Source: Isoetes taiwanensis
Taxonomy: Eukaryota; Streptophyta; Lycopodiopsida; Isoetales; Isoetaceae
Length of the DNA: 64,000 nucleotides
Assembly (NCBI GenBank): GCA_021234155.1
Contig: JAJEKV010000071.1
Coordinates: forward strand, 496,001-560,000
Reading direction: 5' to 3'
Shown here in pieces: positions 4,696 to 47,266 of this stretch. Positions within the stretch are counted from its first letter, which is position 1; every line of letters starts with the position of its first letter. The notes under the pieces are model-generated. The model saw only the letters and a program-made list of their open reading frames with translations. It was not told where the DNA came from and made no database searches. The translations under genes were made by a program, and so were the position numbers.

Positions 4696-4716
4696 ACTAC
4701 AAGAGGATGAGGGTTT

Positions 4717-4985
4717 GGCGTCAGAAAAATCGTCAGGAAAATTGAATGATTATGTCCTGACGAATATCCTGACGCTTACCCTGACGATTAAATTCCTGAC
4801 GATATATCGTCAGGACAAAACGTCAGACGAATCGTCAAAAATTAAGCGTCACATATATCGTCAGAAAAATCGTCAAAAAAATCGTCAGAATATTGCGTCA
4901 GGTGTAACGTCAGACTTTTCGTCAGAAAAATCGTCAGATGATGCGTCAGGAAAATCGTCAGAAAAATCGTCAGATTTTTCTTTTT
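4717..4985. repeat. Left subterminal array of CGTCAG/ATCGTCAG motifs
   Basis: About fifteen copies of a short CGTCA-containing unit, mostly CGTCAGAAAAAT, are packed here in one orientation. The reverse-complement array (TGACGATTTTT units) lies at the other end of the element. Although it reads as an open frame rich in Ser and Lys, it is a repeat, not a gene. Confidence 0.75.
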
Positions 4986-25763: not shown

Positions 25764-25767
25764 TTGA
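25764..25767. repeat. Target-site duplication of the outer transposon, left (TTGA)
   Basis: TTGA directly precedes the left TIR, and an identical TTGA follows the right TIR at 47,263-47,266. The LINE frame is continuous if one copy is kept. Confidence 0.9.
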
Positions 25768-25794
25768 GGGTGTAAATTTGATAGTGGTACCCCA
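25768..25794 (+). repeat. Left TIR of the outer transposon
   Basis: 27 bp, exactly the reverse complement of 47,236-47,262. Inside it follow GCTTTAAGTGCTTTAAATGC-type words matching the AAGCACYTAAAGCACC words inside the right end. Confidence 0.95.
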
Positions 25795-25971
25795 GCACTG
25801 TTCGGACACTTGCTTTAAGTGCTTTAAATGCTTATTCCTCGATCAAAATTTAGAGTAACGAATTTTGAGGTTGTTATTCCAGAAATAGCAATCCTCTTTC
25901 GAGGAGGAAGGGATCAATGACATGGATTGATTCCTTGGGCGCGAGATTGATTTCTTAGTTGATTCTACTAG

Positions 25972-28712
25972 ATGGCGAGATTTCTTGGATGGCGGGAATT
26001 TGTATCAGTTCTTGCTATCATTCTTCAATTCCGGAATAAACTAGTTCATTTCAATTGCAATTCGGACAAATTAGAATTGCAATTCCTTGATCATATCAAT
26101 TTCATGGCAAGTTCTCCTGAAAGCATTGATTCTGCTAAACGAAGAATTTACTTGGAGCTAGAATCCAGAAGAGAATCCAGAAAGAGGATTAGAGAATTGG
26201 AGAAGGAGAACATTGCACCTTTAGTACAGAAGAAAAAAGAACGTTCTCTGGGTCAAACAAGACAACAGGAACTTTCAAAAGAGTTAGAGGATTCTTTTTT
26301 TCACATTGTAAGGAATTGTGCTGATGATGATTCAAAAGGAAGAGTAGCACACAGTTTTTTAAAAAGGATCAAACATTTACCACATGTTACTATAGCAGAT
26401 CCCAAGGAATTTCATGTGATGAAAGATATGATTTCCAATGTGAGAGAAACTATTCAGGCACAAAAATTTCAAAGAAGTACTGATGTACTCCAAGCAAGGA
26501 AGACCACCCTCCAAATGGCAGCTTCCACAGTCAAAGGGATTAATCAGAGAGCAATTTCAAGGCTTCTTTCAGTTCTCAAAAAAACTGTAGCCCAGGCATT
26601 TAGAAGACGAATATGTGCAGAGTTTGATGCTGGTCCATGATCAATGCATGCAAGGAAGAAGAGATTTGATGCACTTTCCCCTGAAGAGATAAGTGTTGTG
26701 AGAAGGTTTTGGCATGAGAATACCCGAGTTTCACTTATAAAAAACATGTTAGAAAGCATGTAACTGAGAGTGGTGAGAAAATTGATCATCCAATACATTT
26801 GCTAGAAGTGACACAGGTATTCTTTGAACCATTTATTTGTTATTCTCATGCTTTTTTAGTTTCTACATTTCTTACATGGTTATGAAATCTAAATTTCTTT
26901 TTTTTTTGGTTTAGTTGCAACTATACCTTGCTTTTGAAAAGGAACATCCTGATATAAAGATATCCCAGCAGACTTTTGAAAGATTGAAACCAAGCTATAT
27001 TAGGAGGCTTTAAGAAAGAGAAACATGTTGTTGCTAATACCATCTGCATCTTGAGTTTGCCATGCAAGCCATAAATAACATGAGGACTGATCCTTATGGT
27101 GTACACAAAGATTGCAAGTGTAAGTGCAGAATTTGTGGTTCGGGTCCAACATGTATTGCTAAAGAACACACTATCAAATCAACTAGTGATTATTGGAGAC
27201 AAATTGTGTGTGCTAAGGATGAGAGATGAATGGCACAAGCATGCATGTCTAATGCAGACATGTACAAAGTGTGGTTTGAAGAGGTAAGTGTGGTTCCCTT
27301 GCAATTTCCAGTTTTGATTGCCTTGATTTTAACATATTTGATTGCTTTAAAATAGGCTGCCAATATGCCCCAGAGAGAAGTTTAAGAATAATAAGCAGAA
27401 TGTTAATTGGAAAGTGTTTGAATAGGTAAAAGTAGTTTAGATTTTACTCAACTAAAACTCTGAAGGCATTTGTTCCACATAATTACAGAGCTCATTGGCA
27501 AGCCAAACAATTCAGGCAATGTTTGACAACACTTGCAGATGATACTATTGTCTCTGTGATAGATTTTGCAGAGAATTATGGATTTAAAATTCAACAAGAA
27601 GCTCAATCCTGCCATTGGCATACTGATCAGGTCTCCATTCTTGTACACATCACTTATAGAAGAATGAGAAAATCAGAGGCAGAAGCAAGACAACAGAAGG
27701 AAGAAGATGACAAAGAGAATAAAAAGAAAAATGCTGCGAAAGAGAAAAGAAAAAACTCATTGAAAGGAATTGTGAAGGAGACTCACTTCTATAGCAGTGA
27801 TGACAAAACTCATGATACGTTTGTCCAGCATTGTCTCCAAAATCATGCAGATTGGCTAAAATCTATGGGAATTAACTATAACAAACATGTTTTCTGGAGT
27901 GATGGCTGTTCTTCACAGTTTAAGTCTTCAAGACCATTTTACTTCCTTGGTAGGTTTCACAAACATCTTCAAAAGGATATTCTCTGGAATTTTTTTGCTA
28001 GCTCACATGGAAAAGGTGAGCATGATGGTGCTGGGGCTGTCATCAAAAGGATTCTAACAAAGGAACAGATGAAATTTAATGGAAAGAAATTGCAGCAAAG
28101 GAGGTGGTTGCATTTCTTAGGTGGTACTTCAGCAACAATCCCACTGATAATGACATAACAAAGTGAACTTTACTGGTTTTCTTCTTCTCACATTAAGTGC
28201 ACTTAAAGCACTTAAGCACTTAAAGCACTTAGAAATTAAGGGCATGAAACTATAAATTGTTTGTGTATGTGGTTGTTAATAGGCTACTCCATTATGTAAA
28301 ACATGATAGTTCCCAGTTCTAAATTTGACTGTCTTCTTTTTTTATTTCTTGATATTAATATTCTTCAATTGTTTCAGCACTAAAAGCACTTACAGCACTA
28401 AGCACTTGTGCAGGTACTTCTGGGAAATTGGACCCTCAAAAATAGATAGATCTGAGAGATTTGACTGTCATACTTTGAAAGGAACAACTCCATTGCATAA
28501 GACCATGTGACAAGGACAACACTTTAAAGATAGCCTATAGACCTCTCTCATGCTTCTGTGAGAATTGTGTTCAATTCCAATGGGACTCCTGCACCACCAA
28601 GTCACGCATTGGTGGTTGGGAAATTATTGAACTAAAACTGAAGGAGATTAAAGCAGCTAATGATGCTAATAAAGCATCAGATGAGGACGTGCAGATAGAA
28701 GATGAACATGAA
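25972..28712 (+). CDS. Outer transposase gene, part before the inner insertion (broken)
   Basis: A DNA-cutting recombinase-type protein by inference. The first open segment (25,972-26,640) is helical and basic (RRESRKRIRELEKEN). Then come HPDIKISQQTFERLKPSYIR, a CxC-type motif RETCCC..YH, and a zinc-like motif EWHKHACLMQTCTKCGLKR, joined by a 72-bp GT-AG intron (27,284-27,355) to LPICPREKF. The core follows: IDFAENYGF (about 27,559), DQVSILVHITY, FWSDGCSSQFK (about 27,898) and HGKGEHDGAGAVIKR (about 28,008). The three aspartates in DFxENY, SDG and HDG are the likely catalytic triad. The last part has PLSCFCENCVQFQW. In-frame stops (for example after 26,637, and at about 27,010, 27,034 and 27,228) and frame changes show it is inactive. 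Another intron is likely at 26,817-26,914. The coding sequence is cut at 28,712 by the inner element and resumes at 43,525. Confidence 0.8.
28190..28412. repeat. Intronic clusters of AAGCACTTA words
   Basis: Two clusters (about 28,193-28,233 and 28,375-28,412) contain repeated AGCACTTAA / TTAAGTGC words like those just inside the transposon's two ends. They lie in a probable intron of the transposase that ends at TTGTGCAG near 28,413. Confidence 0.65.
28709..28712. repeat. Target-site duplication of the inner transposon, left (TGAA)
   Basis: TGAA precedes the left inner TIR, and TGAA follows the right one at 43,521-43,524. Keeping one copy joins the outer transposase codons ...GAT GAA CAT GAA and GAA GAG GAT GAT... 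in frame. Confidence 0.9.
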
Positions 28713-28737
28713 AAGTCGTATTTAATTAAAGTGGGAC
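28713..28737 (+). repeat. Left TIR of the inner transposon
   Basis: 25 bp, exactly the reverse complement of 43,496-43,520. The two sides then diverge but keep GGGACTCA words. Confidence 0.95.
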
Positions 28738-28814
28738 AAATCTCGAATTTTGGGACTCAGACTGAAAATGGGACTCATAATGACAAATTTTTTTACATTG
28801 AATCGTTGTTAGAT

Positions 28815-29040
28815 CAGGGGAAGGGGAAGGGGAAGGGGAGAAGTTGGGGAGAAGTTGAGAGAAGTAATGGAAGGGGATAAGTTAGAAGAAGGGGGGAGGG
28901 AGGAAGTTCAAAAAGGGGGTTGAGAAGAGGGGGCAAGGGGAGGTGAGAGGAGGTGAGTTCGAAAAGGGGGGGAGAAGAGGGGGCAAGTGGGAAGAGTTGG
29001 GGGAAGAGATGAAGGGGGAAGGGGAGAGGGGAAAACCAAA
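28815..29040. repeat. Purine-rich G-run tract
   Basis: Over 200 bases nearly free of C, with GGGGAAGGGGAAGGGGAAGG and many further runs of three to six G. It is capable of G-quadruplex or triplex formation on paper. Confidence 0.8.
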
Positions 29041-29109
29041 ATTATTAAAGGGGAATATATCCCCTTAAAATTCAAAATGATAATATTAAAATATAATTAA
29101 TAATTAATT

Positions 29110-29403
29110 TAATTACATATAAAATAATTTAATTAATTTAATAAAAAAATATAAACCGTCTTCTCGACTAATGAGTCGAGAATTGCCTTCACCTCCATTT
29201 GCTGAGTACCCCATTTGGCCCATGATTTTTTGACTGTCATGTCTTGGTAGAGCAGATCCCATAACCAGCCGGATACAGCCAGGATCTTGACCTTCTCCGT
29301 TAACCATTGTGCATGATTCGATATTTGGCATCCAAGTTGAGACTCCAGAAAAATCAGAGGCAATATTCCAGACGCTCAGAATGGCATTTGCCATTTTCGT
29401 CAT
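29110..29403 (-). pseudogene. SRPBCC / lachrymatory-factor-synthase-like gene fragment
   Basis: The minus-strand frame includes ANAILSVWNIASDFSGVSTW, MPNIESCTMVNGEGQDPGC and IRLVMGSALP. The W..ASDF.G...WMPNIESC..V.GE.G.PGCIR pattern is typical of plant polyketide-cyclase/Bet v 1-like proteins of the lachrymatory-factor-synthase type, which bind small hydrophobic ligands. Only about the first half of the domain is present. A second frame continues with KKSWAKWG. It lies inside the inner transposon's left arm, far from any complete gene, so it is best read as a captured host fragment. Identity is from pattern recognition. Confidence 0.6.
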
Positions 29404-29541
29404 GACTTAGAACCAGTTTTGGTTACATGACCAAAACGTAAAAGCAGAGAAGGCTGGGAAGGTAGACTGAATCGCCCATTATTTGCAATAAAGGACAGAT
29501 TATACCCGCCTTGAGCTTCGAATCATGCCAATACTTACATA

Positions 29542-29736
29542 CTAGACCGCAGGCATTTCGACCAAGGCTCCGCCTTTTTTCAATATCAATTCAAGACACC
29601 CATTAGGTAAAAACAGAGTAAAATCATCCTCTCTTGTCTGTTTCTTGAGATCTTGCTTTTGATCTTCTCCTTGAGCGACTTGTTCTTGGCAATCTGCTAC
29701 CTGATTTGGTACGCCAGACGAAATTCCTTGACCCAT
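29542..29736 (-). pseudogene. Small open segment, possibly part of the captured membrane-protein gene
   Basis: A 64-residue minus-strand frame, Gln/Asp/Lys-rich at its start, then DDFTLFLPNGCLELILKK. It lies downstream, on the same strand, of the membrane-protein start at 30,209 and could be a later exon. I do not recognise it. Confidence 0.3.
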
Positions 29737-29966
29737 AAGGCAAAAAGAAAACAGAGATCTGGTGTATAGGAGATCTGGTTAAGATTATGGCGAAGAATCG
29801 CTGGCATCCACATCCTGGGTTGGGACGGCCTCAGAAGCCTGCAGGGGAGCCTCTGTTTTTAGCAATCAGACATTCAATCCGGCCTCCGAATGAAGCGCCT
29901 ATGCGCCAGTGAAGCGCCTATAGCCGGAATGCCTGCCATCTCCATGTTGCTTTGCTGGACAGGATT

Positions 29967-30209
29967 TTAATCGGGCAAACAGGCGAGGCAGTGAAGCAGT
30001 CCACGACAGATAGGAAGCAACCCACAGCCGATGAAGCTTGGAAATCCGGCTCTACCTCTGGTTCCCGAACCTTGGCTTATATTTGTACACCGATTATCAA
30101 GCCCCCTTCTTTTCCAAACTAGAAGATAATAGAGCTCCGCTGCAAGAAGAACTGCCAGAATCGAAAATATTACTGTGAGCGCCACTCCCAGAGTACCCAA
30201 CGAGCCCAT
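29967..30209 (-). pseudogene. Small plant membrane-protein N-terminus (captured fragment)
   Basis: Starts MGSLGTLGVALTVIFSILAV and continues LLAAELYYLLVWKRR: one hydrophobic helix followed by an ELYYLLW..RR boundary. Small plant membrane proteins of unknown function share this pattern. The frame then runs on without known features to 29,967. It points away from the inner transposon's companion gene, and the adjacent right side (30,210-30,560) could be its former promoter. Function is unknown. Confidence 0.5.
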
Positions 30210-30535
30210 TTTTCGCCCAAATATCTGCCCTCTGCTTCATAAATCTGGTTTTCAACTTCCGTAGCTCACGAATCCATAAGTATGGCGCTCTAAAGAAAAG
30301 AAAAGAAAAGAAGCGGGATATGGAAGATTCAAATCAGCCCCCCATTCAAAACACACCAGCTATTTACACGAATATACCAGCTGCCTCTTAGTACACATTT
30401 TGAATTTCATTTTATCCCGCCCATTCTTTTGAACAAGCATAACAGCAGGGAGCGGGGAGGATAGCATGGCGCCCATCGATCAATAAGCGGAGGCGTAAAA
30501 AATATGGCGATCGACCAAGCGGCTATGCAGATCAG

Positions 30536-31673
30536 CCAGGCGGAGGCGCTCTAAAATATGGCGATCGACCAAGCGCCCAACTGTAAGTGGTGCGTTTGTG
30601 TTTTTCCTATTGCCATTTTCACTCTGAGGAGAAGGCGCTGGTATCTAAGTGCCCATTATTCAAATAGATATGGGATCATGCCTAAAGATCATGGATCACA
30701 AAGTAAAAATCAGGAATTTTCCTTGCTTCCCGACTTCTCATTTGCAGGAGAATTTTCCTTTGCAGGAGCCAGTTCTCGGTCTGTTTAGCCTGTTGTCTTT
30801 GAAACATTCTTGCAGTAATCCAAAATTCAGTGGGTAGATTTTTCTTGTACCTGTCACTCCTGCTTGGTATTTTGGCCTTGTGCAGTCTTAGCCTTGAAGA
30901 TCCGGCCCTGTGCTATCTTTAACCCTGCTTATCCGACCTGAGCAATCGCTCCTAATCCCTGCATATCCGGCCCTGTGCTATTTCTAACTACTTTTCCCGC
31001 CTCAATCTGAGCTCCTGATCCCTGCGGATCCCCTGGGCAAGCATTTCCACTCTTTCGGCTCTTTCTTTAGGGTTAGCCCAAATTTTGGATTTAAGATTAG
31101 GGTATGCAATTGATTAATTTCCCCCTTCCTAAGATTTTTTATTCTATAATTAGTTCTCGTATCATTTTTTAGCCTAAGCCACTTGTTTATTTATAGTATA
31201 TAGTTAGTTCTCAGGTCATTTTTTCGCCTAGCCATTTTTTCAGTCTAGAGTTAGTTTTCTGCCTAGCCATTTTCTCATGTTAGTTCTTCGTTTACGAATG
31301 TTAGCATAAGATATTTACTTATTTTTTAAGTTATTTCCTAACGTTTAGGGACTTCATCTTTTTTGGATTTTTCTACCTTCATTCTTGGGATTTCATCCAC
31401 CCTCTTTCTTGCCACTTTTGGCCAAGAGTCACTTTTTTCTCGTTTGCTATTTTACAACAATTTTAACAACAATCGCAGGTAACTTTTAAATGGTTACGAA
31501 ATTCTGGGAGGAATTTTTGCTTGGGACTCGCGAGTCGAGAAAGGCCTTCTGACCCCTAAAACCTGCGTTTTTCGCTTTGAGCTGCCTTTCTCGACTCGCG
31601 AGTCGAGAAAGGCCTTCTGACCCCTAAAACCTGCGTTTTTTCGCTTTGAGCTGCCTTTCTCGACTCGCGAGTC
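30536..31673. repeat. 1,138-bp tandem duplication, copy 1
   Basis: Begins CCAGGCGGAGGCGCTCTAAA. Identical or nearly identical strings recur exactly 1,138 bases later for most of the length, including a 76-residue open frame (MAIDQAPNCKWCVCVFPI...) that I do not regard as a gene. One visible difference is GCGATCGACC here against GCGATTGACC in copy 2. High identity implies a recent event. Confidence 0.9.
31520..31673. repeat. Palindromic minisatellite, first block
   Basis: Units of ~78 bp contain GAAAGGCCTTCTGACCCCTA, AAACCTGCGTTTTT and the perfect 18-bp palindrome CTCGACTCGCGAGTCGAG (31,590-31,607). The unit joins the two copies of the 1.14-kb duplication. Confidence 0.85.
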
Positions 31674-32811
31674 CCAGGCGGAGGCGCTCTAAAATATGGC
31701 GATTGACCAAGCGCCCAACTGTAAGTGGTGCGTTTGTGTTTTTCCTATTGCCATTTTCACTCTGAGGAGAAGGCGCTGGTATCTAAGTGCCCATTATTCA
31801 AATAGATATGGGATCATGCCTAAAGATCATGGATCACAAAGTAAAAATCAGGAATTTTCCTTGCTTCCCGACTTCTCATTTGCAGGAGAATTTTCCTTTG
31901 CAGGAGCCAGTTCTCGGTCTGTTTAGCCTGTTGTCTTTGAAACATTCTTGCAGTAATCCAAAATTCAGTGGGTAGATTTTTCTTGTACCTGTCACTCCTG
32001 CTTGGTATTTTGGCCTTGTGCAGTCTTAGCCTTGAAGATCCGGCCCTGTGCTATCTTTAACCCTGCTTATCCGACCTGAGCAATCGCTCCTAATCCCTGC
32101 ATATCCGGCCCTGTGCTATTTCTAACTTGCTTTCACCTGTCCAATGAGCTCCCGATCCTTGCGGATCCCCTGGGCAAGCATTTCCACTCTTTCGGCTCTT
32201 TCTTTAGGGTTAGCCCAAATTTTGGATTTAAGATTAGGGTATGCAATTGATTAATTTCCCCCTTCCTAAGATTTTTTATTCTAGAATTAGTTCTCGTATC
32301 ATTTTTTAGCCTAAGCCACTTGTTTATTTATAGTATATAGTTAGTTCTCAGGTCATTTTTTTTTTGTAGCCATTTTTTAGGTCTAGAGTTAGTTTTTTTA
32401 GCCATTTTCTCATGTTAGTTCTTCGCTTTCTTAATGTTAGCATAAGATATTTACTTATTTTTTAAGTTATTTCCTAACGTTTAGGGACTTCATCTTTTTT
32501 GGATTTTTCTACCTTCATTCTTGGGATTTCATCCACCCTCTTTCTTGCCACTTTTGGCCAAGAGTCACTTTTTTCTCGTTTGCTATTTTACAACAATTTT
32601 AACAACAATCGCGTAACTTTTAAATGGTTCTGAAATTCAGGGAGGAATTTTGCACGGACTTCCTTGAGTCGAAAGGCCTTCCTTGCCCCTAAAACCTCGT
32701 TTTTAAACTTTGAGCTGCCTTTCTCGACTCACGAGTCGAGAAAGACCTTCTCACCCCTAAAACTGCGTTTTTTTGAACTTTGGCCTTTCTTTCATTTCAT
32801 GAGTCGAAAGG
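31674..32811. repeat. 1,138-bp tandem duplication, copy 2
   Basis: Same sequence as copy 1. The match is close up to about 32,650 and then passes into a more degraded version of the palindromic minisatellite. Small indels cluster at about 32,125-32,150 and 32,360-32,430. Confidence 0.85.
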
Positions 32812-33010
32812 CCTCCCCCTAAAACCTGCGTTTTTAAACTTTGAGTTTGCCTTTCTCATTCGTGGTCGAGAAAGGCCTTCTACCCCTAAAACTGCGTTTT
32901 TTTTTGAAATTTGCCTTTCTCGACTCATGCGTCGAATTAGAAAGGCCTTCCCGACTAAAACCTCGTTTTTTAAGCTTTGAGCTGCCTTTCTCGACTCGCG
33001 GCCTGTATTT
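32650..33010. repeat. Palindromic minisatellite, second block
   Basis: About five degraded units with CTTTGAGCTGCCTTTCTCGA, CTCACGAGTCGAG, AAAGGCCTTC and CCCTAAAACCTGCGTTTTT. A related CTCGACTAATGAGTCGAG hairpin also occurs at 29,163-29,180. Confidence 0.8.
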
Positions 33011-33095
33011 TCCAAAAATGGCTCTAAGAACTGTGTTTTATTTTATTTTATTTTGCCTGTAGCATCACTTGACTAACTTGATTTTATCTTTTGCA

Positions 33096-33245
33096 GTCCT
33101 TATCTCGACCAGATAGTACATGCTTGGGAGCAATGAAAAGACCAGTTCATTGAAGAAAGATGCCGAGAAGAGGGTGGTGACATCAGTTGGACATACAAGC
33201 ACGTGGCCTATGAAGGAACTCCTCATACAAATTTCTATCGTCTGT
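33096..33245 (+). pseudogene. Orphan exon-like coding segment
   Basis: After a good acceptor (TTTTGCAG ending near 33,096) one frame reads PYLDQIVHAWEQ, an in-frame stop, then KDQFIEERCREEGGDISWTY and KHVAYEGTPHTNFYRL before a possible donor-like CTGTAAG. Its amino-acid texture is that of a real exon, but I do not recognise the protein. It sits between the minisatellite and the companion gene and may be another captured fragment. Confidence 0.35.
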
Positions 33246-33715
33246 AAGTTGCTCCGTGACTTGGACAGAGCTCCACGCGCCGTTTGCACTAGGTGGTTCA
33301 TGTGTGAAGAGGGTGTAATCATTGTGATAATACGACCACTATGGTCTCTTCACCCACTGTAATATATATTGTAATGAGCCCATTTATAAATATAAGGTAT
33401 CTCAAAACTAGTATTTTTTGGTGATTAAGTAAACAATTTGCTTAATTTTTGTTGGAATTTGGGTAAAAGCATGAAAGGGTGTCTATAAATGTAGCCCTTT
33501 TTGTACATATACATATGTACCGAATGCACATTTTTGGAATAACTGTCATCATGACCAGCTAGTAACTGCCATGATTAATGGCTATCCACTACTCAAACCA
33601 ATTATTATCTGGATTTTGAAATTCTTTCCCAAATTCTTTCTTGGTTTGCCTCTCGCTCACTATCCTCCCCGCCTTCTCTCGCTTGGATTCCTGATCACGA
33701 ATTCTTCATCTAGCT

Positions 33716-36700
33716 ATGGCCCCAAAACGCCCCCAGATGAGTGCTTGCTCATCACCACAGCCCAAGCAAGATGCCAGTGCTTCCGGCAGTGGAATTTTAC
33801 CTCCAAGGAGTTTACGTTTGGGTTCTGAGGTGATCCAAGCCAAAGACCTCCGTGAGAAACATGCAGAGGCCCACATACCCAACCTAGAGATGGTTATGAA
33901 CGAGGTATGGGGTGAAGCTCCAAAAAACAGACGAGGATTCAAGGAAGGGAGAATCCAGAACGCATGGAAAGATGATTTTTTTAAATATTATGAATTGGTT
34001 TATGGCAAGAAACAAAGTTACAAACCATTATATTTCAACCTATTTTGCCGAGCATTTGCTCTTCACTTGAAGGGGCGGCTTGTTGATTGGATGGACGTGG
34101 CTAGGACCGCCAAAGATCTTGCCAAAACCCTCGGTTCGAGACGCTGAAGGAGGACCCTACAACGGGTAAATCCTCAACTATCAAACAAGACATCGTATTG
34201 CTTGGCCAATATTAGAGCCACGGGTTATTCTAGATCGGATGTTGACACAATAAAGCGATTACTTAAGCATGGGTTGGAGGAGAAAACTAACCTATTGAAT
34301 GAAGTAGAAGCCTTTGGAAGAAAAAAGGAGGGATGCATTGAAGGTCATCAGCCGGATTGAGGGTAGAAAGGATATATGCTATCCAAGATCCGCAGCAGAG
34401 ATGCGCCGAAAAATAGATGAGACAAAACAGAATTTGACAAATTGTCCCGGATCCTGGCGAAATGTTATGTTCGGAGTGTTGAAGTACAAGTTGGAAGACT
34501 TGGTTATGAGTAGACATGATAAAGAACAACACTCTTCTAAGCTAGAAATTGGTTTGGGTGAAGCAACTAAAGACATTGAAAGGCATGAAATCTCAATTGA
34601 ACAAGCAAAGGAAAAACTTAATTGCATTGAATTGGTTCGGAAAGGCATTCCACAGATTTTGGATTTCATGGGGAGAGCAGGACCTATTGTTCTCAGACCC
34701 GAGGCCCTACCCTCAGAGGAGCTACTTCTATAGAGCAGTTCATCACATTCAGTTCATGTACTGTTGTGGCCAAGGCTTTGCAAAACCGGTTTGTTGTTTA
34801 CTAGCTCCATGCGAGATGCTTATTGCCTCTTACGCTTGTGTTATCCGTCCATGAAAGATGCAATTGCATAAAAGGTTGCATCCGGGGATGAGGGCATTCG
34901 AATTCAGCTTGGTTTCCTGTAGCGTGAAAGGTATGCATTGCTCTCAACTAATTTAAACTTATATTTCTCTTCATTCATATTTGTTATTGTAATCTGCATA
35001 GTTCTACATGTATGGCTTTCAGTGCATTGCTATTCCTTGTACATGTATAACTTTTAGTGTACATCCAGTAGCGAGGTATACATAGGCATATATTTGCTTG
35101 TTTATTGATGCTTTTATTTTTTGAGCTTGGACTGCAGTTGTATCAGTTGTACATGTCTCTAATGGAGTCTACATCTGCAAATAGATGTACATGCATTTAT
35201 CTTTAGAGTGCATCTGTAGATGGATTCATAAGTATGTGCATTTTTTACATATATGTGCTTTTTTTTTTGCATTGAGGAACATGTACATGTACATTTGGCT
35301 ATAGTTAAATGTAGTTACTTACATTTGGTACATTCTATGTACATGAAATGTACATGCTTGGCAGGATGTACCATATATTTCTCATTAGTTCTGTTTTCAT
35401 GTTCTTTTATGTCTATTGAAATTTAGATCATTTGTTTGTTTGCGGATGAGGTCGTTCCTATCCCGTAAGCGGCTTTAATGGTGATGATGTTCTTGAGCCA
35501 TCTCAGATCGACTCTCTTTACAGATTTTATTGAGCATAATAAGCGGATCAATCAGTAGACCCTCTACCTTCCAGCTCCGGATCACCAATGACATTTTCGC
35601 CACCGGTAATAGAACAATGCAATAAAGGTGCACCTTTCGAACATGGCAAAGTGAAGTTGAGGAAATTGAGAGGATGGCACTTGAGAAAGCTAAAGCAGTG
35701 CAGGTGCGAGCCTTCAATGACTCACGCAACAGAAAAATCTTTCATCACCAAGTGCTAAATTAGTAATTGGAGAAGCTAAGAAAGATTCAAATTTCCGTCT
35801 CAAAGATCATCCGGGTCCCGCCTCGACCCTGTTACGTAAGAAACTACAAAGGACACAGATCCAGATTTTAACCCGTGGAGATACGGGGAAGAGGAAGCTG
35901 AGTTGGTAGTTGAGTCCACTCCAAAGAGGAGGCAAAAAAGAATGCCGGTGATGGCACTCCAAAGGAAAAAAGCAGGCAAAATCTCCAAAGAACAAAAAAA
36001 AAATGTCCTCCTAAAAAAAAATCTCCGTGCAAAAAGTGCCACCACCACCTAGAAAGAGGTATGTCCAAGATGAACTAATTTTGTTAAACATCTCAGGTTA
36101 TGGTAATTAACCACATTTTTTTTTTGTACATAGGACACGATCACAGGCCGTGAAGGAAGCTGATCCTGATCCTTCTGAGTCGGAACCGGAAGAGGAAGAG
36201 GATCTACAAGCAAATATTGATGTGATAACAAATAAGGTGCAGCAGTCCTCAGAAGATGCTGAAACAGGTGATGAATTTACAAGGTGAGTAATATACAATT
36301 GATTACAATAGATATATTCTTTTGCTAATGCTGTTGTTTCCTTATGCAGTTTTAGTGAACCGACCGAAAAGGTTGGTTCCATTCACTCCTTATAGGATCG
36401 GTCCTCCTAAGCCCGCACCCTCTATCTTTCAAAGTGATGTTGACGAAGTTCTGTTTGGAAGTCGGACTTGACCTCTAAGATGGTAGATGTCTATGGGAGG
36501 TAGGCTAGCATTTCAACATATTTATGTTATTTCATTCCCTAAGTCACTCATCTTATGTATTAATATGTAATCTGGATTTGTGTGCAGGTACCTTTGTAGC
36601 AGTCTTCCATCTGATTGGAAACACAAGTTTTTTACGGTTCGACCGGACACCTTCCAGAATTTTGTGAATTCCCAAGAACAAGGGCAGATGCACGAACACT

Positions 36701-37468
36701 AACATAAAGGAAGGGCTGGATGGCATTTTGATTGCAAGATGCCAATACATATTTGTTCCAATTACTGCAAGGCCCAAATGTGGCATTGGCAATACTTGTG
36801 CTTGCCGGTCCAATGAAAAGCTCTTTTCCATCTATAGCTAGCCCAAGTATACGATCCTCTCTCCCGTCAAAGGCTATGTACCATGCTAAAGTGGTCCGTA
36901 AAGTATGAGTTTCTGTCGCTTTGTTTTTATGATTTGATTATTCTCATATTGCAATTTCTTATGCTTGATTTATTCTCACATTGCAATTTTGCGGGTTTCA
37001 TAAGCTTGTGATCAATAACATGATGCTCGGATCCAACAAATTTTAAACCATGGTAGGAAGAACTTTGATGCTCCCGTGTTCTCGTCCCAAAATGCCGTAA
37101 ACTAGTACCAAAGAACCCCTTGCATGTACATTGTGGCTTACATGCACAAATTCATAGATGCCGTGGGTTGCGGGGGATAGGTTCAATACGTTGTACGCTT
37201 TATACTGAATAATTTTATGAATTGTATGATACGCATATTTGCCGTATAAAACGTAAAAAATACGGGCAAAAAAATTCCGGGCGTCGGAAGATTTTTGACG
37301 CCGAAAACAACGTGAAAGCGACGCCGAAAAATTTTCCACGTCGCCAAACAAAAGAAAACCGCGTCACGCCGTAACGCAGAAAATCACAGACGTGGAACCT
37401 TCAGATCACAGACGCCGGAAGTTTTTCACAGACGAGATACTGAAAGAATTACGTCAGACGCTGAATTC

Positions 37469-37500
<32 letters not shown>

Positions 37501-39540
37501 TTTTTGAATTTTATGCGACGCCGAAAATAGCGGAAAGCGTCGAAAATTTTTTTGCGACGCACGCAGCATGGAAGGTTTCACGACGTTTTTTTTTTTCAGT
37601 TCGCGTCTGTGAAAAATTTTCAGACGCAGACGCTTTCCGCGAAGCTTTTTTTTTTCCCGGTTTATGGTTTTAATACGTTAAATACGTATTTTATTAAAAA
37701 ATACGTATTTTTTGACTTTATACGTCAGGAATTTTAATTTTGTACGTATAGAACCTATCCCTGCGTGGTTGATGCACAGCCAAGCTCCATTTTTGTAAGT
37801 AGAACATGTTATTTTCCTATTAGTTATTTGTTGGTATAGTCCTCTAATACTTGTGCACCATGCAGATGACACCCAGTTGGTTCACTGATGCCTATGCCAA
37901 GTCACGGAGGGATCATCTAATGGAGGCATTAATTGTAGAAGGCGAGATGAATATACAAGCAGTTGTTCCTACACCGGGTAGATAGTCCCTTTGACTTGTT
38001 TGTAAATTACATGTTTTGTATGAGCCATGTTCGAGCTTCTTTTGTACTCAATAAGTAATGAAAAAATTAATTTATTTGTCTCACTTACACTGTGCAAATA
38101 ACAATCGTGTAATTATCAATGTGTTTTCTCAATTGTGTGTCCGAAATGTAATTATAAATTGTGAATCTCAAGTGTTTTCTTCTTTATTGACAGTGAATCA
38201 TCTAATTCGGGGAGAAAGCTCGTTATCTTTGACTTAAATTCGTGTTGGGCAAGAGTGTGCACAAGAATGAAAATATTAACTCAAGATACCAAATGATCCG
38301 TAAAGATGAGCTTCAATTTAATATAGGAAATGTGTTTTTTACTCAAGCAGCCGGGGTTAGCATCACTGTTAGCATTTGTAAGAGAAGGGTTTGATGTTGC
38401 CATCCGGTCTTCACTCACTTCTAAAAATCTTCAACCAATTGTGGAACATATTTGTGATGCTTTTTCCATAAAGTCAAGTTTGTTTACAGCCAGAGAGCGT
38501 TGTTGGACTCTCATACACAAACACCCTCTTGAACCTCAAAAGGGGTTGTTTGTGAAACCATTAGTCTGTGGTATGGAAAGAGTACCCAGAGTACTATGGA
38601 CATACAGCCTCGATCGACGAATTTTAAAGATACAAATCCACTTTGAATCCTCGTGAGGAAGCTACATATGTCCTTTCTCTTGACAATCGATATTAGCTAG
38701 TGACAGATTGCTTGTTATGGAGCTCATTCCATGGCTTAATGGATTCAAAATGGCGAAGATGGTATAGTTTATGTGAAAGAGCATCCAATGACTAATGCAA
38801 AGCCAGATGGCATATCGAGCGGGTGGAACAGATTTTCTTTGGCAAACTATGGCAAAGAACTTGGGTGCTCACGCCTAAATTTAGTCAATATACTGAGCAA
38901 GGAATGGAGAAATCGCCATCATGTTATTGGCCTCTCGACCGCCCATTGTTGGTACAGACTTTGACCCGATGTACAAATTCAAATATTATGAATATATGTA
39001 TCAAAGTTTTTGTTCATTGCACTTGAGTACTCTATTCTTCTCGCTCTTTCTTATTGGTACAATTATGAGTGTGTATACATAATTAAGTGATCTTCATTTG
39101 CTTTGTAGATGAATGGACCAAAACACAAAAGACTATTAAGAAACTAAGAGATAGAGTTCTGCTGCACCCAGAGGTAATACAAACCAACACAAGCTGCAAG
39201 TACATAGGGTTGGGGACCGATTATCGCCTCTATACTGCTGTTCCTGAACTTTGGGAAAAGGTTGAGCAAATTGAAAATTATGAGGAACGAAAGCAACCAT
39301 GAAAGGTATATTGGCAAAGAAATCACTTGTTGCACAACCCTTGGGGAAGGCACGCGGTCCCGAAGATGCAAAGCTATGTAGGATGGAAAGGTTTGCCGCT
39401 GGCACGTGCTATACAAAACCGCATGGACTATCGCTTTAGAGGATATCTCTTCACCTCTCCTACGGCTGGAAGACATGATGCAATAGTCATAAGATATCAG
39501 GCTCCTACTGACATTTTGAAGCTTGGTCATGAATTATGAG
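33716..39540 (+). CDS. Inner companion gene: coiled coil + HAD (FCP1-like), degraded
   Basis: Counterpart of the outer gene at 47,006-44,387. It starts MAPKRPQMSACSSPQPKQDA, then a conserved N-terminal segment (YELVYGKKQSYKPLYFNLFC ... RLVDWMDVARTA; compare AYAFAWEN...INWASFG in the outer copy). A coiled coil follows at about 34,314-34,660 (KDIERHEISIEQAKEKLN), then a Cys-rich patch near 34,750-34,850 that may be a decayed RING, and charged linker exons at about 35,640-36,290 (SESEPEEEEDLQANID). The HAD domain lies at about 38,200-38,700: KLVIFDLN (Asp at 38,231), FVREGFDVAIRSSLTSKNLQ and GLFVKPL. Further coding-like segments run from 39,087 to 39,539 (LLHPEVIQTNTSCKYIGLGT; RFRGYLFTSPTAG). 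Introns and frame breaks separate these; a foldback element sits inside at 37.2 kb. The role in transposition is unknown. Confidence 0.6.
34950..35395. repeat. TGTACAT-rich intronic stretch
   Basis: Many TGTACAT/ATGTACA words (for example GAACATGTACATGTACATTTGG) in a probable intron of the inner companion gene. Similar clusters lie at about 39,728-39,792, 41,785-42,065 and 43,153-43,215, all within the inner element. Confidence 0.6.
37174..37761. mobile_element. Small foldback/MITE-like element inside the companion gene
   Basis: 588 bp. The left end GGGATAGGTTCAATACGT and right end (reverse complement) GGGATAGGTTCTATACGT form imperfect TIRs. TGCG flanks both sides, with one extra G on the left. 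The interior is packed with GACGCCGAAAAT / GCGTC words in both orientations and centres on a run of about 30 A followed by about 10 T between TTC and GAA, so the whole element could fold back. It has no coding capacity. The superfamily is not identified; the TGACG-rich layout recalls the subterminal arrays of the CACTA-like element at 4.7-9.0 kb. Confidence 0.65.
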
Positions 39541-39969
39541 CCATGCTCATTTTTGGGTGTGTTATATTTATGTCCACAATATAAATATATCAACCATTTG
39601 TACATGAAAACCTGTCCATTTCTTATCTTTGCCATGACTGAAACCATTTTAGTGTTTATGCAATTCAACTTTCTTGTGTTCAATTCTAATCAACTTACAC
39701 TTAACAAATTTTTATAAGATTTCTGGAATGTACAACAGATGTACATAAGATGTACATCTGTTGTACATCTTATGTACATTGATGTACATAATGCACTTCT
39801 GAAGTAGTCCAGTTCTTCAGTTCTTATAACAAAGTATTACAATATTTCAGGAAAGTACTACAGATCTGACTTAGTCCATGTCATCTACAATTGCTGGAAG
39901 TTGTGATAACAATGTCTCATGGACTTCATCCGGCAAGTGAAATGTCAGGCTTGCCCCTTCAAATTTTGT

Positions 39970-42900
39970 TTTTACTTTCTTGAATGGGATTCAAACCCAA
40001 TCACGCATTCTCCCAGGTACCAAAACATTCTTAGTAGGAAGCAATTTATACTTATTGTGGCAGCCTGGGATTAGTTCATAATATTGTCCTTCAATGACAC
40101 TAGTGCCAGCAGAGTATTCATTTCCATAGTCATCAATTGAATCTTCTTCCAATGCATGCTTTTCCCTGGTGCACATGAGAACATAGTATGAAACACCTTC
40201 CACATTGTCCGTCGCAAAAAAGACACAAATACATCTCAAAACAAAACAAGGTCATCTAAACCAGCCTCGCCCCTCTGCATACAAAAAACTTCCACATCAT
40301 TTTTAGCTTCAACACGAGAGGCAATATGATCTGTGGGCTCCAAACTTTTTAGAGACCATTCTCCACAATGTTTAATGTTCTCACAATTCAACCAATTGAA
40401 GTTCATGCAAGCATCACAAAAGCACGAGAGTGGTCTGCATAGCAACTTTGTTGGATCTCGGCTGGTTTATAGTTGACACGAATGTATCTGGCCGAAAGTA
40501 CCGTGTAAAGTCTTGCAATTGAATGCTTGTCGCCCGATCACATCTGCTTTTTCCAACCTCCCAAAACACCCTTTCACAATCCGATTCCTTGGCCCTTAAA
40601 ACCGCACAAGCCAAGCCGCAAGACACCGGGCATGCCATTTTGTTTTCTCTCGCCGCTCTCAAGCCACAACTTTGCTATACCAGCCTCGCCATCATGTGTG
40701 CCTTTCCCATGGCCAGATCCAAAGAAATTCCATATCACTTTCGAATTTTATTTTCAACATGGTATCTACAGATTCCATACCATGCACGCAAGCAGATTTG
40801 AATTGAGATGCACAACCATCCGACCACACATAATGAAGGTTTATGTGTCCACCTCCATTATTCTTAAGCCACCCCAAATGTAATTTAAAACCATGTTGCA
40901 CAAAATGAGTGTCATGCTTCCCATCCATCCTAAACATAGAAATGCACTTTTTTTTAAGCTTACCTTCTATTTTCATCATTGAAATATGGACCAAAATACT
41001 AATTTGATCAGATTCCAATGCTCGGATTGCACTTCGTCCCTCGGTTTCAATGTGTAGTTCTCTCAGAAAGTCAACAAATGCATAAACACACTATTATCCC
41101 GAGTTTCAACACATCTTTTAAACTGCTTGCTCGCCAAGATTGGCCGTAAAGTTATGATCTCAGAAACTTAGCAAGCTGATTTTTCATGTTCTTTAACAAA
41201 ACAGATGCTTTGTCATTCCGATCAACTAATCTAAGCCTTCGATGTACCTTTTTTGATGGCTCATTGACATATGCATATACTTGCCACCCACATTCTCAAT
41301 TCCATCTTCCTCGCTTTGGACAGATGTCTAATTTCTTCACTCCACATTCATCACATTCGCCTTTGATGCATTTTAGTTTATGCCATTCATCCGTCACATA
41401 TTTCTCGCAAAACCTGTTGACCTCCACAAGATACTAACATTATCAAAAGTTTTTGTTTGCTTGACATACTCCATTGTTTTGCCGATGCACGCACACTACA
41501 TGCCGCAAGTGCAATTAACATGTAGGGATCTCCTCATATCATTGAAGGCCTTTCAGACAGATCTGCTTGCTCATGTTTGACACAACAACATGTGTTTCTC
41601 TCCTTCAATTTCCTTATGCAATCAGGTTTCGTGATACTGAACCCGTCGGGCGAATTTTGGTATCGATTCCGATATACAAACCGTTGATAAAGCTCGCATC
41701 GCAATAACAAAAGCATTAAAGACCATGTTAGCAAAATGATGTCGGCAACCGATGCCAAAAGAGTATTGAACTATACTATTGTACAATTAATGTATGTTCT
41801 ATGTACATAAAATGTCCATCCAACAGTTCCCATCGACCATATCGCACATCTAATGTACATCTAATGTACAAAGAAGATCTAATGTACAATAAACAGCCCA
41901 ATCAACATCCAATGTACATCCAATGTACATCTAATTAATGTTCCAATATTAGTACATCACATTAATGTTACAATATTAGTACAACTAATGTACATATGTC
42001 GATTTGTTTGGCTTCATTACCGAAAGTACGTAATGATGTAATTTTGATATTCAAGTACATGTAAATGCAAATGCATGGACATGTAACTGTAATGGATGTA
42101 GATCTAAAACGCACCTAATAGCACATCAATCGCAAGATTTCTGCTACTATGTAAACAATGTAAAATGCAATACATTTCATGAGAACCATGTGTATTCATT
42201 AACAGTCACTTAATGTAACTAGAATGTACGTAATAAAGTCATGAAAGAATTTTGGAAGAAAACATAAACTCCAAGACTGAATTGATTCAATTACAAGAGC
42301 AAACCCGTGAGATATCAAGGTATTGTATTGCTTGTGTTCTCCTCTTCATGACATCTCTAACCTTTGGTGAAACTTTGGTATTGTCAAGCCAAAATTCACT
42401 TTAACCTCGACATTTGATTGAATCATCGATTCTATTTGATCTTGGCATCCTTCCCGCCAAAGCCCATACATTTGCTCCACTTAATGACATTATCTTCCTT
42501 CTTGCCGCAGCTTTGGATAAATTTCTTGGCAGTATCTTTAGCAATTTTGAAGAAACATTCTTGTTTATATCTCCTTTTTTCCAACAATCATTGATAATGT
42601 TGAATGTTTTGCAGCCAATTTATCTTTGCTATTAGCGTATTTTTACTTCTTGAAGTCCATCTTTCAAGTTTCGATCATTGATTTCATAACAATAACTTCG
42701 AAGGATTTCCAATTATGTGTTCGAAAACGAAAAAAGCCTCGCATCTTGCAACAAACGATCACAAAAACTAATCTTTGATCTCGACGAAGCATTTGCCAAA
42801 GAATCGAGGATGCAATCCACCGAATTGCCAACACGCTTCTTTATTTGTTTTGTGGCATAACACCGCCAATGTCGGCATACTTGCGCTTAGAACCATCACT

Positions 42901-43050
42901 TCCATTGGAATTCTCACCCTCCATGAACAGATTGAAATTGATTTGTATTTTTGTAGATTCAATTGGCATGTGTTTGCTTCTCGAATTCCTTCGTGTTCGC
43001 CTCCGTGAAAGGGGGGGAATTTCGGAAAGGAGGGACGGATCCATTCAATT
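39970..43050 (-). pseudogene. Inner transposase gene, degraded (minus strand)
   Basis: Every landmark of the outer transposase recurs in the same order. A charged N-terminal segment lies at about 43,044-42,841. KPDCIRKLKERNTCCC lies at about 41,640-41,580 (outer: KPSYIRRL..ERETCCC). The zinc motif DEWHKLKCIKGECDECGVKK and LDICPKRG lie at about 41,400-41,310 (outer: EWHKHACLMQTCTKCGLKR). DQISILVHIS, VWSDGCASQFK (about 40,820) and HGKGTHDGEAGIAK (about 40,700) follow, then RPLSCFCDACMNFNW (about 40,435) and finally the C-terminal domain (39,991-40,239; YYVLMCTREKHALEED, VIEGQYYELI). Several frame changes and stops separate these, so it is a pseudogene. The shared pairs prove that inner and outer elements are one family. 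Confidence 0.75.
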
Positions 43051-43495
43051 TGGTTCTAAGTGGTTCTGGTTAACCAAGAATTTCTGGGGAATGTCGTGGA
43101 TGATCTTGCAATCATTGCATATCCGACACAAAAACGACAAACCATAGTATCTTGATGTACATCTAAAATGTACCCCAAAAAAGCACAAATTCGTCCTTCA
43201 ATTCAGTACGATGTACGTACACCCTTTCATGCTTTTACCCATTTGTGATCTCTTGTCTACCCACCTAAGAAAATAGAGCCAAAATGTCTTGGTAAAGGAA
43301 TTCACCCTCACGCAAAAAACTCTTATTTTGAATGACAAATAAGCCCCAAAACAGGGACTCGACTCGCTATCCGAGAAAACTGGGAGAAAGCTTGATGCAC
43401 AAGAATGCACAAAAAAATCAATTAAGGACAGCTGGCCTGGGTGCTCCTTTTTGTGTAAAATAACAGGGTTCCGAAAATAAGTGGGAATGGAATGA

Positions 43496-43520
43496 GTCCC
43501 ACTTTAATTAAATACGACTT
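43496..43520 (-). repeat. Right TIR of the inner transposon
   Basis: Exact reverse complement of 28,713-28,737, followed by the TGAA duplication. Confidence 0.95.
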
Positions 43521-43524
43521 TGAA

Positions 43525-43857
43525 GAAGAGGATGATGAGGAAGACTATGACATAGCTAGTTCTATGGTAGAGGTTGGAGATAATTTTGCTGTCAATGCAG
43601 AGGAAGGTAATGAAGAGGGGGTTGATTTTTATGTATTGAAGTGCACAGAAGCAAATAACACTTTGCTTGAGGATTATGTGGATGGATGGGGAAATGTATT
43701 TAGAGTTGAATCTGTTATTGTCTCAGGATATTACTATAAACGGGTGGGTAGTCTCAAATTTGAGCTACTGGATGGCCAGCCTGTGGCTAGTGTGTATAGC
43801 CACCTTGTAAGATTAGCTAACTTTGAAATGATTGCAGATGAAGATAAGATAAGATGA
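43525..43857 (+). CDS. Outer transposase gene, C-terminal part after the inner insertion
   Basis: The frame continues from codons before 28,713: an acidic linker (EEEDDEEDYDIASS) and then a domain reading VDFYVLKCTEANNTLLEDYV, GWGNVFRVESVIVSGYYYKR and KFELL, ending with TGA at 43,855-43,857. It aligns with the inner copy's C-terminal segment YYVLMCTREKHALEED...YGNEYSAGTSVIEGQYYELI. The domain is not one I can name; it is compact, with a strong G-(Y/Q)-YY motif. The apparent ATG at 43,492 lies in the inner TIR and is not the native start. Confidence 0.8.
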   Translation, partial: EEDDEEDYDIASSMVEVGDNFAVNAEEGNEEGVDFYVLKCTEANNTLLEDYVDGWGNVFRVESVIVSGYYYKRVGSLKFELLDGQPVASVYSHLVRLANFEMIADEDKIR

Positions 43858-44386
43858 ATTTTTACGTCCACGGGAACCCAACAGGTTATGGGACGGCACA
43901 TGCAAGGGCAACAGCCCATCTAAAACCTGGGGACTAGGCCCCATCACCAAACACAATAACTAAATATTAAAAGGCTACCAAGAGAATTGTATATTGTATA
44001 CTATAGCTGAAGACACTTGCCAACAGATTATATGTAGCCTCCCAAACTCAGCTTAAATTCATTATTCATTTGGTATTCAGTCAAATACTGTTCATATGGT
44101 ATTGACTCAATTACTATTCATAGTTTGACTATTAAAGCAAAAGCATTCACACAATTACATCAATGCACTTGTAACTTGATATTCATGTATTTATGTTCCT
44201 GAATTACATCAAAATTATGGCATATCTGCCTGTATAACATGTAGAAAATTGTGGCATGTCTGCCCGAGTTACATATAAGTCTTCAATATTTCAATATATA
44301 ACCTGTACTATTCAATATTAGTCTTCAATATATAACCTGCATGAATCTAGTCTGTATCAACTTAACCTGAATCAACTTAACATATG

Positions 44387-47006
44387 TTAATCCTGAATCA
44401 ACTTCTGCATTCTATCTCTGTGTCCTGAAGTTTGAAAAGTCTCCCTTAACCATTGTAGCTGACCTTTGCAATATTTTTTTACCATTTCAGTGGTTTCATT
44501 TCCCATTTCAAACTCTGACATTATTTCTAGAATCTTGAGAGCATCCTCTGTGTACTGATCTGGCCTACAATGTGCCTTTAGAATGTTAGAGAAATCATCA
44601 ACCATTGCCACATCCTTAAGCACTGGAAAGAATTGGTCCAATACATAATCATCTGCGTCCAAATTAAAGTCTGGAATCAAAAGAGATGTGAAAGGTGGAG
44701 AGGCAAATGTTTTCTGAATACCATCATCCAACAATATGCAATTGCTCTCATATTGTGGGTATTGACTAAAAACTGCAGATAAAGGTTTTAAGTACAATGG
44801 TTTTTCAGATTTAATGGGCCACTTGAAAGGCATCTCTAAGCAATGGGACTGATCCCAAATAAATACAAAGTCATGTCTGATAACTGGTGCTATGACATCC
44901 ACAACTTCATTTACATTAACCTTGTTCATGGATGACCAAATTGCTATGTCAAAGTGTACCATTGCTGCCTTCAGAAATTCCTGTGCATGAGCCTTAAAAC
45001 AACCAATTTCTTGCTTGTTTTTGAAATCCACAATTTATTGTCCACACATACAGGATTGTTCCTACTGTATGTCCTTACTAGAACACCATTCACATCTAAA
45101 ATAAGAAGTTTCCTCTTCAAAGAGGACTTTTCTATAGACCTATCATTCAAAAAACATAAAGTAGACACCAACACCAACACAAACACAAACACAAACACAA
45201 ACACAAATTTGAAATACTAAAATAATAATAACCTGTCAGGTACAATATTCAATGGATCAACCATTTGTTCAACATTTTGGTCTTGTAATACAATTGTACC
45301 TGAACATTCAAACATTTATAGTTAAATCAAAGATTTTAGAGACACATTTGAATTGCCCCTTAAGACCTCCATAATTGCATTCATTTTGGTACCTGCAGTG
45401 TCATTGTCAGAACCACAAGGTGGCACTTCAGTGTTGGCATCAACACATATTGTTTCTTCCTTTTCTAGTGTTGTTTCTTCCTTTTCTGGTCTTGTTTCTT
45501 CCTTTTCAGATTGAACCTCAATGTTCACTTTTTCCATATCCTTTGCCAATGCCCTCCTCCTAAAATTGTACTTCCTCACTTCTTTACCTGTGTTCTTTGC
45601 CTTCTTAATGTTTTTGCTCTTCTTTGTTGCAACATCTCCATCTTTCCTTTTCCTTTTGTTGGCTGCTTTCTTCTCTCTTATAGGGGTACTTTCTACATCC
45701 TTACTACATCCTGCATCATCCTGTTCAACAACAGGTTCATCCTCATCACTTGCATAAATTTCAGTGGATGCTTTACTAGCTGCTTTTTGCCTTAACTGCT
45801 TTTTAGGACTCAACAATGCATCTTTCAGCACTTTTTCACTTCCAGAAGGTGGCACATAGTCTTCAGTAGCAGAAGAAGACCTAACAAGTGAATCATGTTG
45901 ATTTGTAGGTATATCTACTGTAGGCATATCTACTATTTTAATTCCTTCTGCTGTCACATGCATGCCAAGCTCAAGAAATAAATCTGGATGAATGACACCC
46001 TCACATACCTTGCATTTACCTTCCTTCAACAAGGCTGCACAAGCCACATGGTACTCATGATCACAACTCAAAATCAAAGACAATTTGTACCTATCATCAA
46101 AAAGTAGGCCACAAGCACAGCAAGCACCAAAAGTTGCAGATTCCTGGTAGTCTTTTGATGATAGTGTTGATGCGGAATGGATTACAAGTTATATTCTTCA
46201 GTTCTGTAATATGAGAAAGATTAGCTCTGAGTTCTGAAATTCTGGCCTCTTTCTCTTTGATCTCCACTTCCAAGGTATTCTTCCTCGAGCTGCTTGCTTT
46301 TATATCTGGAGACTTGAAAAGTTTCTGAACTCAGTTACAGAAATGTGTCTCCATTTGTAGTGCGAGCTCCAATTCCTTCATCAGATCAGAATTTGCATTA
46401 TTTGGTTGCAATTCAGATATTGAGGTTTTCAAATCCTCAACTTTCTTCCTGCTCTCTTCAAATTCCACACTAAATTTTTCATTAGACTTAGCCTGTGCAG
46501 CTAAACGAACCTCAATTGCATGCACCTCTTCTAACATGCTTGCCCTTTCATTCTCAAGCTTATTTACAGCTTCCTTAATCAATTCAAAGTTCTCTTTTAA
46601 AGCAGAGTGGTCTAATTTAGAACTTTCTAAGCAAGTAACTTTGCTAGAAGTGGCAACATGGACATCCTTTCCCCTAGACCTGCACTTTCTGTACTTCATG
46701 ACTTTAGCTCCAAAAGAGGCCCAATTGATCTTGTGCTTTGCAGGGTTTGAAATGGCAGTATCACAATTTTCCCATGCAAAAGCATAAGCCACCTGCTTTC
46801 TCACTTCATTGTTTACCATAGTTTCTTTTTGATATAATTTTTTCAACAATCATCCAATTTTTCTGCATCGAGGTAGAAATGATCATAGAAACTTTCATCT
46901 TATTGCTTGGGCCTTCTTGCCAAACCGAGGCCCATTGTGCATCTGTTACATTCTCTTCAAACCATTTTACTTTCAAAGCAAAGCAATCCTTTACCAGAAA
47001 GTCCAT
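44387..47006 (-). CDS. Outer companion gene: coiled coil, RING-H2 finger, charged linker, FCP1-like HAD domain
   Basis: Read on the minus strand from 47,006: an N-terminal domain (WFEENVTDAQWASVWQEG; AYAFAWENCDTAISNP; INWASFG), a long coiled coil (about 46,600-46,200), and a RING-H2 pattern CCAC...CDHEYHVAC...CKVC (about 46,125-46,005). A linker with acidic and basic nuclear-signal-like runs (KKAANKRKRKDGD) follows to 45,322. The HAD domain (about 45,120-44,620) has LLILDVNGVLV, FDIAIWSSMNKVNV, FVFIWDQSHC, KPLYLKPL and NCILLDD, the order of plant FCP1-like phosphatases. The second Asp of the DxDx motif is Asn here, as in the plant DLNG subgroup, so phosphatase activity is doubtful. A helical tail ends at 44,387. 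Long frames survive, separated by probable introns. RING proteins usually pass ubiquitin, and FCP1-like domains usually act on phospho-Ser/Thr. The role here is inferred: transposon regulation or host-factor manipulation. Confidence 0.75.
45172..45210. repeat. (ACACAA)n microsatellite
   Basis: Six or so CACAAA/CACCAA units just upstream (gene sense) of the HAD motif I in the companion gene, probably at an intron edge. Confidence 0.7.
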
Positions 47007-47235
47007 GAATGTCTATGAATTCTTGCTCTACTACAAATTTTCATTATAAATTGAACGGATCAAAGGATTGTGTGACAGAATTGGTGATCTAGGAAGAGGA
47101 TTCGGAAACAGGGGATTCGAAATTGGGGCTGAGTAAAGAGAGGGCGCGCGGGAAACGAGGCAAATGATTTCCTCTGAAAAAAACTATAACTGCTCGAATT
47201 TAGGTGCTTTAGGTGCTTGGTGCTTTCGCGCATTT

Positions 47236-47262
47236 TGGGGTACCACTATCAAATTTACACCC
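47236..47262 (-). repeat. Right TIR of the outer transposon
   Basis: Exact reverse complement of 25,768-25,794, followed by TTGA (47,263-47,266). Confidence 0.95.
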
Positions 47263-47266
47263 TTGA

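Follow-up and report, generated by a model that had tools for sequence, protein, structure and literature searches.

MuDR, PIF/Harbinger and CACTA are two-gene terminal inverted repeat (TIR) elements that carry a DDE-type transposase gene and an accessory gene; in MuDR, the two genes are convergent and the target site duplication (TSD) is 9 bp long. The capture of accessory genes is also described for Sola2 elements (PMC3627910). Here, we describe nested TIR transposons in a stretch of 64,000 nucleotides from the lycophyte Isoetes taiwanensis (assembly GCA_021234155.1, contig JAJEKV010000071.1, positions 496,001 to 560,000 of the forward strand; hereafter, the window). Two of the three elements, the outer and the innermost (third) one, probably represent two families of two-gene cut-and-paste TIR transposons, which share a transposase family without a Pfam name and a co-inherited accessory gene, the companion, encoding an FCP1-like haloacid dehalogenase (HAD) domain.

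We assessed the pairing of transposase and companion across the source assembly (1.658 Gb in 1,110 contigs), which was searched as a whole genome. For the outer-type queries (transposase core and HAD), the best 150 of 9,432 and 4,441 candidates, respectively, were scored (152 and 153 matches reported, 150 rows of each used); with the third-type queries, the best 150 of 4,460 transposase candidates and 150 of 1,242 HAD candidates were scored. A listed HAD match was located within 8 kb of 59 of the 150 listed outer-type transposase matches (0.23 expected by chance). All 59 pairs were convergent, and the gap between the genes had a median of 1,348 bp (range 44–5,148). For the third type, a listed HAD match was found near 57 of the 150 listed transposase matches (0.22 expected by chance), again always in convergent orientation (57/57), with start-to-start quartiles of 2,366–2,444 bp and a range of 1,471–7,731 bp. 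The outer pair of the window is itself missing from the 59, as nested insertions separate its two genes. Among the matches listed, 91 outer-type and 93 third-type transposases had no listed HAD nearby; as most candidates were not scored, these are not counted as absences. Given the recurrent convergent pairing and its narrow typical spacing, the companion looks like an inherited part of at least the outer and third lineages rather than a stray passenger. This upholds the original prediction, made from the window alone, that the convergent layout is conserved and that the companion was inherited rather than captured by chance.

The ends of the elements were analyzed separately. The outer TIR had 128 forward and 140 reverse matches in the genome with up to three mismatches (reversed-pattern control: 0). 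Among 100 listed perfect matches there were 30 adjacent pairs less than 30 kb apart, 20 of which delimited elements of 5.8–7.2 kb. A listed HAD match was present in 14 of these 20 elements, a transposase match in seven, and both in six; a fifteenth HAD, in C1033, was seen in fetched DNA. Four of four fetched outer copies (6,591–6,651 bp) aligned with the outer element from end to end over both genes, in pieces, at 84–94% identity. They were flanked by the TSDs ATGT, AGAA, TCCA, and TAGG, so that all five outer copies examined have a 4 bp TSD. Four listed MITE-like (miniature inverted-repeat transposable element) derivatives of 385–395 bp also had perfect outer TIRs (C889:522581, C907:11569250, C919:20714800, and C920:2786281). 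The third TIR was far more numerous, with 2,645 forward and 2,648 reverse matches at the same threshold (control: 0), and the TSD was ATTT in the one third-type copy examined. Within 12 kb inside 100 listed perfect third-family right ends, a HAD match was found for 33 ends, a transposase match for 25, both for 13, and neither for 55; on the wrong side of these ends there was no gene match.

The layout of the window is summarized in Table 1. The bounds originally predicted for the outer element were confirmed by its TIR and TSD. The TIR of the second element is likewise a perfect inverted repeat flanked by TGAA on both sides, and further perfect inverted repeats lie inside it at 33,460–33,482 and 43,219–43,241. 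When positions 33,461–43,244 were removed, the flanks belonging to the second element aligned unbroken over the junction with four paralogues (C6s, C128, C10, and C4s), each of which has a single ATTT at that point. As 28,713–33,460 and 43,245–43,520 are contiguous in these four paralogues, the third element is a separate insertion, and it owns the inner transposase and HAD. The original prediction had assigned the inner gene pair to the element at 28,713–43,520, a candidate that the unoccupied sites rule out. In nested insertions, the genes of one element can appear to belong to another. Both gene pairs of the window are decayed: stops or frame breaks interrupt the two transposases, the third-element HAD, and the outer HAD between motif I and its remainder.

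Table 1. Nested TIR elements of the window and their features (positions in the window).
Feature	Position	Strand	Remarks
Outer TIR transposon	25768..47262		TSD TTGA at 25764-25767 and 47263-47266; 6,683 bp without nested insertions
Outer left TIR, 27 bp	25768..25794	+	Perfect inverted repeat with right TIR
Outer transposase, N-terminal and catalytic part	25972..28712	+	Homology support from 26915 onward; in-frame stops; core 27436-28155 (DFAENY, WSDG, HGKGEHDG)
Outer transposase, continued beyond nested insertion	43525..43857	+	C-terminal BAH-like domain 43525-43854
Outer companion, FCP1-like HAD (NIF) domain	44390..45034	-	IWSS, KPLS, LLDDG motifs
Outer companion, HAD motif I (LLILDVNG, D-x-N)	45037..45150	-	Frame break before rest of HAD segment
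Outer companion, RING-H2-like Cys/His segment and basic stretch	45325..46188	-	zf-RING_2 match below cut-off
Outer companion, probable coiled-coil segment	46334..46849	-	Weak matches only, to coiled-coil families
Outer right TIR, 27 bp	47236..47262	-	Perfect inverted repeat with left TIR
Second element, non-autonomous	28713..43520		TIR AAGTCGTATTTAATTAAAGTGGGAC (AAGTCG type); TSD TGAA at 28709-28712 and 43521-43524; own sequence 5,024 bp; split by third element
Third element, 9,780 bp	33461..43240		TIR GGGTAAAAGCATGAAAGGGTGT; TSD ATTT at 33457-33460 and 43241-43244; unoccupied paralogous sites
Third-element left TIR, 22 bp	33461..33482	+	Perfect inverted repeat; paralogous-site comparison
Third-element companion, FCP1-like HAD (LVIFDLN, AIRSS, KPLV)	38195..38653	+	Stops present; putative upstream exons from ~33.7 kb
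Third-element transposase	39895..41695	-	Stops and frame breaks; core 40695-41090
Third-element right TIR, 22 bp	43219..43240	-	Perfect inverted repeat; paralogous-site comparison

Profile searches supported the predicted relationship between the two transposases: the outer one was matched with an independent E-value (iE) of 1.7e-99 over the core and 4.6e-21 over the C-terminus, and the third-element copy with 1.5e-22 and 5.7e-16. Their description as two copies of one family was not supported: the elements form clearly distinct lineages that differ in TIR and in size, and their transposases lie far apart in the tree. Judged by sequence, the outer and third transposases are distantly related within a single family. 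The Asp triad D224/D308/D349 is invariant in this family. In an AlphaFold2 model of a family member, P0048 (pLDDT 87.6), residues 205–395 matched integrase cores and Mos1 by VIA; the best E-value by Foldseek alone was 1.5e-3. Thus, the three-Asp core suggested originally is supported, and the transposase is predicted to be of the DDE/D type with an RNase-H-like D-D-D core. From the predicted fold, its C-terminus would be BAH-like and may read chromatin. The two transposase queries yielded 9,432 and 4,460 first-look candidates, yet the family corresponds to no Pfam family: Pfam matches were weak and scattered (FYRN at 0.0075 in one of 18 members; any family in at most two of 45 members). Searches of PDB sequences with the transposase profiles gave no match. 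No relatives were found among 68 pattern matches in viral contigs or, by tblastn, among 126 pattern matches in prokaryote genomes, where the search was limited to such matches. Named relatives of the transposase come from Cryptomeria, Taxus, Klebsormidium, and Adiantum. Clusters of GATGTACAT-like motifs at 35.1–35.4 kb, 39.7 kb, and 41.8–42.3 kb of the third element are possibly subterminal binding repeats.

The outer companion HAD matched Pfam family NIF (PF03031) with an E-value of 7.7e-12 and 45.6 bits (curated cut-off 21.8), and its sole PDB match was UBLCP1 (3shq; E = 4.4e-5). When this HAD was searched against a protein database, none of 154 candidates matched at E ≤ 0.001. Its third-element counterpart is weak taken alone, with 0.018 and 15.2 bits against PF03031, below the cut-off; it matched the outer HAD by tblastn (E = 5e-6), and its type recurs across the genome at a fixed position. 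The RING-H2 domain proposed for one copy fits by eye in its Cys/His spacing, and its zf-RING_2 match (E = 0.049, 14.4 bits) falls below the 27.3-bit cut-off.

The motifs of NIF/FCP1-like HAD phosphatases include the nucleophile Asp, the Lys of KPL, and DD; a DxD motif I defines the active members, and replacing its acid/base Asp by Asn is expected to hinder acid/base catalysis. In the companion HAD, motif I reads D-x-N in five of five outer copies, the third element, and seven of nine 12-kb elements described below; the pattern applied picked up no motif I in the remaining two. The nucleophile Asp is kept, and KPLS and LLDD are present in all five outer copies. Wherever motif I was found, the second Asp of the PF03031 DxD is Asn, and so the companion is likely an altered or non-catalytic phosphatase; the substitution suggests binding or altered chemistry. 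An active CTD-type (C-terminal domain) phosphatase that acts on host proteins together with a RING ligase part would accord with the NIF and UBLCP1 matches, the retained Asp, KPL, and DD motifs of the outer copies, and the RING-H2-like spacing. With the Asn in motif I and a RING score below the Pfam cut-off, we consider such a catalytic anti-host role improbable.

Selection tests on the companion were uninformative, with a HAD dN/dS near neutral among frozen copies. Together with the decay of the window copies, this value would suit a functionless passenger that is copied along from its place between functional ends and does nothing for the element. Four of five listed HAD matches at 36–37% identity to the query have stop-free frames of 366–385 aa, and most of the 57 third-type pairs are narrowly spaced; neither would be expected of unselected cargo at such divergence, and we consider a passenger improbable.

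A further HAD pairing was found in relatives of the second element. The AAGTCG-type TIR had 1,887 and 1,931 genome matches on the two strands (control: 0), including several listed pairs ~4 kb apart (the window copy measures 5.0 kb, 28,713–33,460 plus 43,245–43,520) and 12 listed pairs 11–13 kb long. The window copy contains direct repeats at 30,536–32,612, with units of 180–300 bp in two copies ~1,137 bp apart, 99–100% identical. Nine of the 12-kb elements were fetched (C15, C16, C22, C33, C35, C60, C76, C118, and C134); their flanking repeats were 4 bp long in eight and 5 bp in one. All nine (C16 being the query, and thus eight others) carry a decayed DUF7869-type transposase-like gene and an FCP1-like HAD; in C16, the DUF7869 match was 4.2e-10, and the PF03031 match 0.0021 (18.2 bits, below the cut-off). 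The dN/dS was 0.27 and 0.35 for two segments of the DUF7869 gene, 0.46–0.64 for other frames, and 0.61 for the HAD. The DFxENY transposase profile had no match in any of the nine, which rules them out as carriers of that transposase. Both genes were absent from two longer fetched TIR pairs, C10 and C128 (14.6 and 14.8 kb); C10, which lacks a matching TSD, appears composite. Neither the DUF7869 pairing nor the BAH-like C-terminus of the transposase had been noticed in the original prediction.

The DUF7869 pairing bears on whether the outer, third, and DUF7869-type elements each acquired an FCP1-like gene from the host on their own and then kept or amplified it. The outer and third HADs are only ~25% identical, their transposases are distant in the tree, a second transposase-like gene also has a HAD partner, and accessory-gene uptake by DNA transposons is documented, with Fanzor1 in Sola2 and other superfamilies (PMC3627910). 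The outer and third families nevertheless share the convergent layout and the D-x-N motif I, and we regard independent capture as unlikely. Even if each family had captured the gene once and then kept it for long, the companion would still be an inherited part of each.

Under the preferred reading of co-inheritance, the D-D-D core of the transposase would cut and join DNA with a 4 bp stagger, and its C-terminal BAH-like module would contact chromatin. The convergent accessory gene, which would have accompanied the transposase while both diversified widely, would contribute an FCP1/UBLCP1-like HAD core, to which the outer family probably adds a coiled coil and a RING-H2-like part. An FCP1/UBLCP1-like fold suggests phospho-CTD or similar targets. 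For the role of the companion, we tentatively favor an adaptor resembling a CTD phosphatase, with altered or no catalysis, that may keep the element expressed or unsilenced; a transposition cofactor comes next, as a weaker possibility. A broader reading, which we hold to be doubtful, is that plant TIR transposons share the FCP1-like D-x-N HAD as an accessory module, which became fixed in three or more element families whose transposases are of two unrelated kinds (DFxENY/WSDG/HGKG and DUF7869), and that in the DFxENY families it acts with the transposase and its BAH-like chromatin reader as an RNA polymerase II- or chromatin-facing adaptor keeping the element active in silenced DNA. A phosphatase-like accessory gene tied to transposases, along with a BAH-like domain in the transposase, would offer a direct way to study how plant DNA transposons interact with transcription and with silencing by chromatin.

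The literature search found no paper joining a transposase with DUF7869, and none combining at least three of DNA transposon, transposase, FCP1, and HAD phosphatase; Repbase and most subscription papers were outside both searches, and the family may be named there. Compared to MuDR, PIF/Harbinger, and CACTA, the elements have the same arrangement of two genes between TIRs and differ in TSD length, transposase family, and accessory protein. The original, putative assignment to a Sola-like group rested on the 4 bp TSD and the three-Asp core; the TSD fits Sola and is not diagnostic alone. As described in PMC3627910, Sola2 elements share the 4 bp TSD and the presence of accessory proteins, with TIRs of 12–21 bp compared to 22–27 bp here, and their companion is Fanzor rather than HAD. 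The TSDs of the outer copies, TTGA in the window and the four given above, are not uniformly AT-rich, in contrast to Sola. The 12-kb DUF7869 (PF25273) elements resemble the DFxENY families in pairing their gene with an FCP1-like HAD between TIRs and differ in lacking a DFxENY profile match. Finally, the companion belongs to the same domain family as the NIF/FCP1-like HAD phosphatases (PF03031; UBLCP1), with the nucleophile Asp, the Lys of KPL, and the DD motif in common, and is set apart from them by a D-x-N instead of a D-x-D motif I and by being encoded within transposons.
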